Shown piece by piece: positions 6,138 through 11,512 of a stretch of 58,594 nucleotides of DNA; positions within the stretch are counted from its first letter, which is position 1, and each line of letters opens with the position of its first letter. Source of the DNA: Candidatus Melainabacteria bacterium (GTDB lineage Bacteria > Cyanobacteriota > Vampirovibrionia > Obscuribacterales > Obscuribacteraceae). The notes under the pieces are model-generated. The model had not been told where the DNA came from and ran no database searches. It saw nothing but the letters and a program-made list of their open reading frames with translations. Made by a program: the position numbers and the translations under genes. The stretch lies in NCBI GenBank assembly GCA_027451745.1, contig DAIDIP010000020.1, forward strand, positions 1 through 58,594, written 5' to 3'.

Positions 6138-7881
<1,744 letters not shown>

Positions 7882-8101: not shown

Positions 8102-9262
8102 ATGACTACGTCTCCGTCAGATTTAGCTAATAAAAATCAACCTGAAAGTAAACTATGCACTTTGCAGCGCCAGCTTGTTATTGCTGTTCTGACGATGCTT
8201 GCTTGCATAATAATTTTTCAAGTTTGTTCTTATTTTGCTGATATATTGCGGGTTCTGGGCATCTCTATTCTTTTCTCTTATCTGTTTGTCGCTGTTGTGG
8301 ATTGGCTAAACAAATACATCAAAATCCGACTTGTAGCTGTTGCCATCGTTTATATTGTGGTTTTGATTGGTATCACACTTAGTGCTATCACTTTGGTGCC
8401 CACCGTAATTAGTCAGATTTCTCAACTTGTAAATAGTATTTATGAACAATTGCCGCATTTTGTTCAAAATATGTCCAGGATTATATTGCCTATAGAGTCA
8501 CATTTACGTTCGACTCATATAGAAATAAAAACAGCTGATTTAGTCAATGAGATGTTGTCCTTTTTGACCAAAATAGATTCAGGACAAATTTTTAATCGCG
8601 TTGGAGATGTGGCAGTTTCCACTATGACCTGGACTGTTTATGGTCTTAGTATTTTGCTTCTATCTTTTTACTTTCTTTTAGATGGGCACAAAATGCAAAA
8701 GTCCATAGTGCAACTCTTCCCAAACGAGCATCAAGATGGACTATATGCTATAGCAGCAGAGATTGATCAAAGCTTACAAGCATTCTTTAAAGGGCAAGTT
8801 GTCTTAGCTCTTAGCTTCGGCATTTTGATGACGATTATTTATTACGCCTTAGGAGTTCACTATGCTTTGCTGCTTGGAATGATTCTTGCTATTTTTGAAA
8901 TCATTCCTGTAATTGGTCCAACAATTGGTTTTGTACCAACTGTTTTTTCAGTGGTCTTTGATGGAATTGATAATATGCCCGGCAATAGATTTACTGAGTT
9001 ATTAATTGTCTTTGCTATTTTTTGTGGGCTGCAATGGGCCAAAGATAATCTCATTGCTCCTAAATATATGGGAAATGTCATAGGACTACACCCAGTTGTA
9101 ATTTTCTTGAGCATAATGATTGGTGCCAAAATTGATGGCTGGTTAGGCATTATTTTTGCCTTGCCAGTGGCATGCGCTATTCAAGTTTTGGCAAAACATA
9201 TCTATGCCCATTACGCAGATTCTAATCATCTGTCTGAAAACATTCAGCCAGATGGTCCTTAA
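8102..9262 (+). CDS. AI-2E family (TqsA/PerM-like) membrane permease
   Basis: Integral membrane protein of 386 aa with the family layout: two to three N-terminal membrane helices, a soluble amphipathic stretch (about residues 115-170), then about five more helices. The conserved C-terminal half includes FKGQVVLALSFGILMTIIYY, then FEIIPVIGPTIGFVPTV and the IAPKYMGNVIGLHPVVIF segment. Known members export autoinducer-2 or act as Na+/H+ antiporters; which applies here is unknown. Stand-alone gene with its own intergenic regions on both sides. Confidence 0.87.
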   Translation: MTTSPSDLANKNQPESKLCTLQRQLVIAVLTMLACIIIFQVCSYFADILRVLGISILFSYLFVAVVDWLNKYIKIRLVAVAIVYIVVLIGITLSAITLVPTVISQISQLVNSIYEQLPHFVQNMSRIILPIESHLRSTHIEIKTADLVNEMLSFLTKIDSGQIFNRVGDVAVSTMTWTVYGLSILLLSFYFLLDGHKMQKSIVQLFPNEHQDGLYAIAAEIDQSLQAFFKGQVVLALSFGILMTIIYYALGVHYALLLGMILAIFEIIPVIGPTIGFVPTVFSVVFDGIDNMPGNRFTELLIVFAIFCGLQWAKDNLIAPKYMGNVIGLHPVVIFLSIMIGAKIDGWLGIIFALPVACAIQVLAKHIYAHYADSNHLSENIQPDGP

Positions 9263-9302
9263 AATTCTTGCATCCCAGAACTATTAGCTAGATCAAAAAC
9301 AT

Positions 9303-9343
9303 GCCAAAACAAAAATACCACCTAGAATAAATCTACAGTGGTA
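9303..9343 (-). terminator. Intrinsic terminator of the candidate ncRNA
   Basis: On the minus strand the stem TACCACTGTAGA pairs with TCTAGGTGGTA around an ATTTAT loop (plus-strand 9316-9342). It is followed immediately by TTTTTGTTTTGG (9303-9315). On the plus strand no T-run follows, so it cannot serve the AI-2E permease gene. Confidence 0.65.
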
Positions 9344-9518
9344 TTAGTGCTACTGCCTAACTGCCCCTTGCGAAGTGGGCTCAGTATTTTATTACACTTC
9401 AGTCAGTCCTTCATGTAATACGGGCTCGCTTGCTACTGTTTCTAGTTAGCGCCAACTTGAAGTTTCCGCAAGGCCCCTCGGCTCATAGAACTCAACTTTT
9501 GTGTGAGTGCTCACCGAA
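9316..9518 (-). ncRNA. Candidate structured non-coding RNA, possibly 6S-like
   Basis: About 200 nt without coding frames, ending at a clear minus-strand terminator. Pairings seen: CCTTGCG/CGCAAGG (9366-9372 with 9467-9473) closing the body, an apical hairpin TATTACA/TGTAATA (9390-9396 with 9414-9420), and CTAACT/AGTTAG (9357-9362 with 9444-9449), which interleaves with the first stem and would be a pseudoknot or an alternative fold. GTGAGTGCTCAC (9503-9514) lies near the presumed 5' end, with AT-rich -10-like sequence (TATTAT) just upstream. The size and long imperfect hairpin resemble 6S RNA, but I cannot recognise 6S consensus bases; tmRNA, RNase P and SRP signatures are absent. Confidence 0.42.
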
Positions 9519-9663
9519 TATGTTTATATAATAGCGCCTTCTATCCAGAAGAGAAGTACCCCAAATTGCATTTTATCTTTCCAACAGAAAAATTAAAAAC
9601 CCGCCCACCAAGCCAATTTTTTTGCAAAAAAACATTATAAAGCGCTGGGACACCCTACTCTAT

Positions 9664-9706
9664 AAGCAAAAGCTTTGCTTTATATCTAGCATATATAAGC
9701 AAAGCT
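9664..9706 (-). terminator. Intrinsic terminator of the ZIP-fusion gene
   Basis: A ten-base perfect stem, AGCTTTGCTT (9671-9680) against AAGCAAAGCT (9697-9706), is extended by AT pairs. On the minus strand it is followed by TTTTGCTTATA. It begins about 34 bp after the stop codon of the gene at 9740. The loop is AT-rich. Confidence 0.55.
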
Positions 9707-9739: not shown

Positions 9740-11512
9740 TTATTCAAGAGTTTTTTCGATTGTTTCAAAATGCTCTTCTATTTCTTTGAATGGCACAGGA
9801 TGTTTGGGATCTGGTGGATTTATATCTTTCAATTGACTGCCAAGCAAGTCATTTATGATTTCCTGAGCCTTAGTGCACTTTTTATTTCCAGTACCATTTA
9901 AAAGCGCTCTAATTGCTTTAAGAAATCCATGAGTATCCTGATATTCCAAATAACCATCTTTGCCAGGTTGTGCCGCTTGTAGCACAACAATTTCACCGGT
10001 CTCCACTGCTTCTTTGTATTCTGACTCAGCTTGAGCCAGTGTCAATAATGCTACTTTGGCTTTGAATTCTGGCTTGTTGTACGCTTCACCACCAACAAGT
10101 CTGCGTGTCTTTTCTACTAGTGCAAGCAGATCAGCATACCCTTTGACAAAGTCTTTATCAGAGTTCTTGCTTGATCCGGCTAATTGACTGAACTTTTCCA
10201 GACCATCTTTAAGCTTATCTAACATGCCAACTTTTTGTAGGGCTGATTGCACCATTAAAGACATTGGCGTTTTGTCTTCAAACAATTCATGTACCGGATG
10301 ATAAGAATGTTTTTTCGCTCTAGCTAGATCAACTGTAGCCATTGGATTATTTTTTATGAGCGAATCATTGTGCAAATCAAATGCAGCCTGCACATGACCT
10401 TCTAAAATTGTTAGAGCGGCAATAATCTTTTGCATGTCGTCATCTTGCATATTGGTTTTACCAGGCACAACTGTTACTTGGGCAACAAGCGAGCTTCCTT
10501 CGGGGCTAATAGCATATTTGCCGGGCACACCAGTTATTTGCACCACCACTTCACTGTTTTTTGCAATGAATGCTTCTTTATTCATCAAACCATGGGCTTC
10601 AATTTCTAGCGGCTTATCGCTTTTGTTTTCAAGCTCGATATATTCACCACGCGTAATAGTAATTTGAGCTGGATCAATATCGCTTGCTTCAAATGAAATC
10701 TTTCTACTGCCAGTGTGATTTACCGATTGTTCTGCAGTACTTTTAGCTGAAGCAACTTCTATATAAATCTCGGTACCAATACCAATAACAAGCCCAAGTG
10801 TTAATGCTGTCATAGCTTCTACTGTACTTAGAGCTGTAAAGCGAAGACGCAACAATTCGCGAGTTACATATATAAGAGAACCAACGGCCAATGACAAAAT
10901 GAATAATTCAAAATTCGTATTTACAAAAGTACCGCCTAAAGCTGCACCCAGTGCAGTTGGTCCTCCAGCGATAAAACCTAGAGTAATTAATTTGGACCAC
11001 GGCACATTGGCTCCTGTTAATGGTGCAGCAATACCAAACCCTTCAGTGGCATTGTGCAAAGCAAAACCAAGGACCAAAATTAGACCAAAACTTGCGTTTC
11101 CACTTGAGTATGACTGTCCTATCGCCAATCCTTCAGCAAAATTATGAAGACCAATGCCGATTGCGATCATATTAGCGATTTCAAGCGGTGTGGCGCCAAC
11201 GCTCTTGGCTTGATGGCGATTTTCTTCAATTGCTCCTAAGCCAATCAGTCCAAGAACAAGGCCTATAGTCAAAATGCCGCCTTGCAATAAAGCCATATTC
11301 ATATCGCCGCTTTTAGCGGTCATTTCTAAAGTTTCTATGGCATGATAACCAACTTCAATAATAAGGAATAAAAGTACACCAGCCGAACCTAACGCCAATT
11401 TTCCCCTGAGTGATTCGGAGGCACCCTTCAAGCGTGCAACCGGTAAGCCCAAAAATATTGTCATCCCTGCCAAGAGACCTAAGGTTATATTTGTTGGCGC
11501 TAATTCACACAC
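9740..11512 (-). CDS. ZIP metal transporter fused to cupredoxin-like and helical domains
   Basis: A three-part protein of 590 aa. Residues 1-255 are a ZIP-family divalent-metal transporter with about eight membrane helices; the metal-site helices are plain: IGIGLHNFAEGLAIGQ (TM4) and GFALHNATEGFGIA (TM5). Residues 270-355 look like a cupredoxin-fold beta domain (KISFEASDIDPAQITITRGE ... PGKYAISPEG), but the cysteine and usual histidine copper ligands are not evident, so it may be degenerate. Residues 355-590 are helical with several histidines (EGHVQAAFDLH, KKHSYHPVHELFE), loosely recalling periplasmic iron-binding helical domains. I do not recognise the last domain by name. GTG start with GGAG eight bases upstream. 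Normal ZIPs are about 250 aa. Confidence 0.82.
   Translation of the reverse strand: MCELAPTNITLGLLAGMTIFLGLPVARLKGASESLRGKLALGSAGVLLFLIIEVGYHAIETLEMTAKSGDMNMALLQGGILTIGLVLGLIGLGAIEENRHQAKSVGATPLEIANMIAIGIGLHNFAEGLAIGQSYSSGNASFGLILVLGFALHNATEGFGIAAPLTGANVPWSKLITLGFIAGGPTALGAALGGTFVNTNFELFILSLAVGSLIYVTRELLRLRFTALSTVEAMTALTLGLVIGIGTEIYIEVASAKSTAEQSVNHTGSRKISFEASDIDPAQITITRGEYIELENKSDKPLEIEAHGLMNKEAFIAKNSEVVVQITGVPGKYAISPEGSSLVAQVTVVPGKTNMQDDDMQKIIAALTILEGHVQAAFDLHNDSLIKNNPMATVDLARAKKHSYHPVHELFEDKTPMSLMVQSALQKVGMLDKLKDGLEKFSQLAGSSKNSDKDFVKGYADLLALVEKTRRLVGGEAYNKPEFKAKVALLTLAQAESEYKEAVETGEIVVLQAAQPGKDGYLEYQDTHGFLKAIRALLNGTGNKKCTKAQEIINDLLGSQLKDINPPDPKHPVPFKEIEEHFETIEKTLE

Follow-up and report, generated by a model that had tools for sequence, protein, structure and literature searches.

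Background

Among bacterial regulators, the Qrr and RsmX-type RNAs are multi-copy sRNAs, and RNAs of the CsrB/RsmZ type act in trans, may be present in several copies and bind a homodimeric protein. Rfam types a further family, poplar-1 (RF03041), as gene, sRNA. According to its description (PMC7779021), Rfam 14 took in 253 families from the Weinberg database and cites a 2017 study, and RF03041 is presumably one of these 253. Our literature search, with the 2017 source study outside its range, found no published function for poplar-1 and no paper naming it, and it returned nothing for Obscuribacter combined with noncoding RNA or for Obscuribacterales combined with small RNA.

The window analysed here is the whole 58,594-nucleotide stretch (contig DAIDIP010000020.1, assembly GCA_027451745.1) from a Candidatus Melainabacteria bacterium of the order Obscuribacterales. 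A sequence-only reading had proposed that positions 9303-9518 encode a structured noncoding RNA of unknown class, with its own terminator and a possible pseudoknot, that was expressed and was either a divergent 6S RNA or something new.

Identity and extent of the gene

A cmscan search of the whole window against Rfam returned a single match over threshold, RF03041, on the minus strand at 9487-9346, with a score of 142.8 bits against a gathering score of 110.5 (E 3.7e-32). The model was matched end to end (positions 1-141 of 141), and its nested consensus helices are present at the locus and covary in relatives. Between 9200 and 9700, no other Rfam model matched at E up to 1 except a sub-threshold DUF805b; tmRNA, RNase P and SRP RNA gave no match there, in agreement with the earlier statement that their diagnostic features and those of 6S RNA were not visible, apart from a general 6S-like size and a long hairpin, and all four were dropped as classes for want of an Rfam match. 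We regard the identification of the locus as a poplar-1 RNA as practically certain. The RNA is thus not of unknown class, the match being well over the curated cut-off, and the suggestion of something new survives for the function, for which we found no published account, and fails for the family, which is already in Rfam. A second copy in the same genome, on contig 18, scored 127.8 bits and is 79% identical to the copy in the window.

The Rfam model describes only the core (9346..9487, minus strand) of a longer gene. When the copies of relatives were aligned together with their flanks, they shared a 5' domain that begins close to CGGTGAG and a terminator immediately 3' of the core, placing the probable gene at about 9518 to 9306 on the minus strand, or about 213 nt (9306..9518), in good agreement with the interval first proposed. 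A full-length covariance model, R1, matched 9307-9518 with 206.2 bits, a score that is not independent because the model was built from 35 copies including that of the window.

The intrinsic terminator (9306..9344, minus strand), also predicted from the sequence-only reading, consists of a bulged stem at 9344-9315 followed by a T-rich tract at 9314-9306, and nine of its 12 pairs show compensatory changes. A simple terminator scan found none; the bulged G in the stem is the probable reason. The absence of a coding frame was likewise confirmed: none of the 35 aligned relatives is free of stops in any of the three sense frames, the antisense frames are stop-free in 5, 10 and 3 of the 35, and lengths take every value modulo 3. 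A simple listing of open reading frames does show antisense open frames in some copies; the stops and the length variation rule out a coding gene on either strand.

Conserved structure and pseudoknot

Of 63 copies extracted, nine were duplicates; the distinct copies numbered 102, and setting aside 11 without an end left 91. The structural alignment (A1) holds 35 of 37 copies picked at less than 86% identity, two having been omitted because the terminator search overran, and the covariation test used 73 of 75 copies picked at less than 97% identity. Across the 35 full-length copies, a structure of 57 pairs is 97.5% paired, with changes on both sides in 40 of the 57 pairs as compared with 24.1 +/- 2.4 in shuffles (0 of 500 as high) and 8-16 in slid controls. 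RNAalifold gave a similar result, with 56 pairs of which 40 had compensatory changes. In a tree-based test over all column pairs, our own approximation of R-scape rather than R-scape itself, ten column pairs reached E 0.02 or less and all were helix pairs; at E <1 there were 19 column pairs, 17 within the structure, one extending P1 and one (24-84) unexplained. The expectation of at least two stem pairings is borne out by nested helices backed by covariation. The single-sequence fold of the window copy (-65.1 kcal/mol, z -2.16, 5 of 200 shuffles equally good) beats chance only moderately.

The 5' domain (9479..9516, minus strand) lies mostly outside the Rfam model and consists of P0 (9516-9513 with 9482-9479) enclosing the hairpin P1 (9510-9504 with 9494-9488), with compensatory changes in six of the seven P1 pairs in A1. 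P0 is nearly invariant in A1, where it is fully paired in 34 of the 35 copies, and a change from C-G to G-C was found in 7 of 10 distinct out-of-sample copies, with G-C or A-U in further copies from one genome (G434, read by eye) and a broken P0 (U-U) in a single copy (L018). An antiterminator pairing between the 5' CGGUG and the terminator CAYCG, proposed by eye, was dropped because the change of C3 to G in seven copies of family f44 keeps P0 but would break this pairing.

The central part of the RNA is the P2/P2c stem (9422..9476, minus strand), which has compensatory pairs and surrounds a symmetric 10x10 internal loop whose strands, 9467-9458 and 9443-9434, each have the consensus RGAAACNNYA. 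The two strands agree at a mean of 7.2 of 10 positions, compared with 2.6 for other pairs of 10-mers, and GAAAC occurs twice in 81 of 101 copies and once in the other 20. In all 35 aligned copies the facing pairs G53-Y84 and Y60-G77 form and a purine at position 52 faces A85, while A61 faces a purine at position 76 in 34 of 35; the stems flanking the loop are 3-5 pairs long. Two-fold symmetry of this kind would be appropriate for binding a homodimeric protein or twin ligands; it could also have a purely structural role.

Hairpin P3 (9390..9420, minus strand), with compensatory changes in all seven of its pairs, presents in its loop one side of the pseudoknot (9406-9401), and the other side (9362-9357) lies in the 3' strand of hairpin P4 (9351..9386, minus strand). 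The six pairs cross the nested helices. Their bases vary among copies (CUGACU/AGUCAG, CUAGCU/AGCUAG, UUGGCU/AGCCAA and others), and yet all six positions are paired in 35 of 35 copies, one pair in the window copy being G-U, with compensatory changes in three of the six pairs in A1. When pseudoknot strands were swapped between copies, only 66% of the pairings were complete, against 35 of 35 for each copy's own. Ten distinct copies from family f44 and genome G435, which played no part in defining the pseudoknot, carry UUUGGC/GCCAAA (nine copies) or UCUAGC/GCUAGA (one). Support for the pseudoknot comes from these helix-wise counts, the swap test and the out-of-sample copies, since in the tree-based test over all column pairs its best pair reached only E 0.25. 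The sequence-only reading had suspected a third pairing interleaved with the first; a pairing of that kind is present and may be the same one, that reading having named no bases.

Promoter and upstream element

In aligned upstream regions a TANNNT box stands at a fixed distance, and in the window it is the putative -10 box TATTAT (9528..9533, minus strand), which would place the start of transcription near 9519-9521. A scan for promoters returned no sigma-70-like pair in a suitable position. Further upstream lies the element AAATGCAATTTGGGGTACT (9555..9573, minus strand), a candidate activator site. Its hexamer GGGGTA is present with at most one change in 84 of the 86 copies that have enough upstream sequence, and the distance from GGGGTA to the TANNNT box, start to start, is 29-30 bases in most copies and 40 in four; all ten out-of-sample copies that were checked have GGGGTA at 29-30. 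A shift of about one helical turn is more than a fixed sigma -35 contact would be expected to accommodate, so the four copies at 40 suggest that the element is an activator site rather than a sigma contact. These four look like one lineage and therefore probably reflect one event.

The element is also practically dedicated to poplar-1. In the 3.0 Mb genome of the window (G000), the pattern AAATG-N4-8-GGGGTAST has two exact matches, both upstream of the two poplar-1 copies, and the control has none. Across 53 genomes of the order, the related pattern TTAAAT-N-GGGGTAST has 99 listed places, against nine for a backwards control, and 88 of the 99 are just upstream of a poplar-1 copy. In 77 cases a listed copy follows 20-90 bases downstream. 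Of the remaining 22 places, 11 stand before additional copies, contig-end fragments or one internally deleted remnant, three run off the contig within the promoter, and eight, about equal to the control number, are followed by no match to the model, including one inside a long open frame on contig 5 of the window's genome. The deleted remnant (L200, G390:C162, 1015-1138) still has its upstream element.

We infer expression of the RNA from promoter and terminator alone. The analysis supports the structural parts of the earlier description, a structured noncoding RNA with a pseudoknot and a terminator of its own, and expression is probable.

Distribution and genomic neighbourhood

The full-length model matched in 48 of 53 genomes of Obscuribacterales and in none of 329 other genomes of the class sample. 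Five genomes of the order have no match (G404, G414, G415, G436, G437), so that the RNA may be dispensable in some lineages. With the Rfam model, only one of 386 genomes in an even sample of the phylum gave a match, that of the window itself, and 216 matches were found in 47 genomes, with a median of four and a range of 1-14 per genome having any. The matches span 23 genera, and tandem copies occur. A pattern scan of GTDB r220 contigs, using a pattern built from the order's own copies that remote relatives would escape, gave 81 stretches with 108 matches by recount. Their contigs are labelled mostly Obscuribacterales, Obscuribacter, Melainabacteria or Cyanobacteria, with some unspecific labels, three of Actinobacteria and one of Proteobacteria; we took the off-lineage labels as mislabels because the contig numbers of the three Actinobacteria fit a genome of the same family (G391).

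In the window, the promoter lies downstream of a same-strand ZIP transporter gene, and the gene downstream of the RNA, for an AI-2E transporter, is convergent. The ZIP transporter (9740-11512, minus strand) combines PF02535 with a C-terminal cupredoxin-like domain (PF13473) in one open frame. On the plus strand, a 447 aa open frame at 6407-7750, 1.5 kb from the terminator end of the RNA, has the DDE transposase domains PF13546 and PF01609. Both neighbours were visible for 70 of 102 copies, and their orientations were mixed (26, 23, 14 and 7). No neighbour is universal and no protein is common to the flanks of all copies; the commonest, a dUTPase, adjoins ten loci, and we read this adjacency as an inherited position. 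Because of the convergent downstream gene in the window and the lack of a universal neighbour, a cis-regulatory leader was rejected. With a promoter and a terminator of its own and no constant neighbour, poplar-1 very probably acts in trans rather than in cis.

Proposed function and alternatives

The best overall explanation, to which we assign a probability of roughly 0.55, is that poplar-1 is a stand-alone, trans-acting gene of about 213 nt, driven by an activator, whose pseudoknotted body would bind a partner. Beyond the anatomy of the gene, the mechanism that follows is our inference. A specific transcription activator would bind the GGGGTA element and switch on all copies together, with copy number setting the dose of RNA. 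The RNA would fold into a rigid pseudoknotted body that offers its internal loop, with its two-fold symmetry, to a partner, most likely a homodimeric protein or else two small ligands, and would act in trans by sequestering, scaffolding or modulating this partner, as 6S RNA or CsrB do, with a different partner. A bolder version, which we offer only tentatively, is that a dedicated activator in Obscuribacterales has poplar-1 as almost its only output and that the RNA serves as a dose-controlled global regulator, its symmetric loop read by a homodimeric protein or twin ligand in a protein-sequestering system comparable to 6S or Csr.

The alternative that survives best, though we consider it unlikely, is a trans-acting antisense sRNA, in which the structured body would be protective, a short loop would pair with the mRNAs of other genes and different copies would carry different seeds. 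A small, stand-alone, multi-copy RNA, in places tandem, with its own promoter and terminator would fit this role, the P1 and P4 loops differ from copy to copy, and the variable 5' hairpin loop could still hold copy-specific seeds. Against this, we saw no conserved accessible seed with the pseudoknot formed, the conserved positions being mostly in helices or in the symmetric loop, and family f44 has lost the single-stranded GANGGA that precedes the pseudoknot. Moreover, Hfq (PF17209) exceeded the cut-off in only 3 of 53 genomes and was not found in that of the window, although a divergent Hfq may be missed. With CsrA and Hfq mostly absent and no conserved single-stranded seed seen, we lean slightly towards binding of a protein or ligand over antisense pairing. 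The Hfq-like proteins over the Pfam cut-off (L162 and L163 in G436 and G437, and G435:C71) all belong to genus g166, in which two of three genomes have no poplar-1 and the third (G435) has a divergent copy, numbers too small to mean much.

It is improbable that poplar-1 belongs to a mobile or selfish element and multiplies by duplication without serving the cell. Copy number is variable and some copies are in tandem, for 19 of 30 copies from multi-copy genomes the nearest relative is another copy of that genome, and a transposase gene lies near the window copy. But aligned copies from two families have retained the promoter, the structure and the terminator, the genera are many, and no protein adjoins all copies. 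Searches of 50,697 phage records, 72,556 plasmid records and viral contigs gave no match, and residence on a phage or plasmid was accordingly dropped.

The suggestion of a divergent 6S RNA that binds RNA polymerase is very improbable. Size, a stem-flanked internal loop and a terminator are shared features, but RF00013 gave no match at E up to 1 in 9200-9700, the short stems beside the loop do not form a long duplex, a genome may hold up to 14 copies, and 31 of the 53 Obscuribacterales genomes hold separate 6S candidates, of which a single one exceeds the cut-off. The candidate in the window's own genome (L005, G000:C24:22918-23153, minus strand) scored 30.8 bits against a cut-off of 46.4. The sub-threshold candidates across the order suggest that the Rfam 6S model fits this lineage poorly.

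An RNA that sequesters CsrA, in the manner of CsrB or RsmZ, would account for the GGA that copies other than those of f44 and G435 have in the P3 loop and that many copies have on one internal-loop strand or on both, and CsrA is present in the window's genome and a congener, but this is very improbable and was rejected, since CsrA is absent from 51 of 53 genomes, most of them with poplar-1, the P3-loop GGA, the sole GGA in a hairpin loop, is lost in f44 and G435, and that of the internal loop varies. The two genomes with CsrA (PF02599) are both of the window's genus (L160, G000:C21:15846-15989; and G398:C43), and in the latter two CsrA matches are separated by 240 bases, each of them within a 173 aa open frame.

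Comparison with known systems

Poplar-1 was previously a catalogued entry for which we found no function, and now has likely gene ends, a pseudoknot, a symmetric core resembling a binding site and a near-private promoter element. This makes it testable, as the activator can be traced through its DNA site and the partner through the loop. Poplar-1 would be a lineage-specific, multi-copy regulatory RNA in a poorly studied, non-photosynthetic sister group of the cyanobacteria. As compared with RF03041, all of whose model positions are matched above the gathering score by the core of the window RNA, the full gene adds the 5' domain with P0 and P1 and the terminator; the nested structure line in the cmscan output does not include the pseudoknot, which Rfam or the original authors may annotate elsewhere. 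With 6S RNA (RF00013), poplar-1 shares a similar size, a stand-alone gene, a stem-flanked internal loop and possibly the mode of a protein-binding regulator, and differs from it in having no model match and no long duplex, in being multi-copy and in coexisting with separate 6S candidates. Similarly, the CsrB/RsmZ RNAs, compared by model only through the Rfam scan, differ in their array of GGA hairpins, which poplar-1 lacks, and in their partner CsrA, missing from nearly all genomes of the order, and resemble the mode that we propose for poplar-1 in being trans-acting, sometimes multi-copy and directed at a homodimeric protein.
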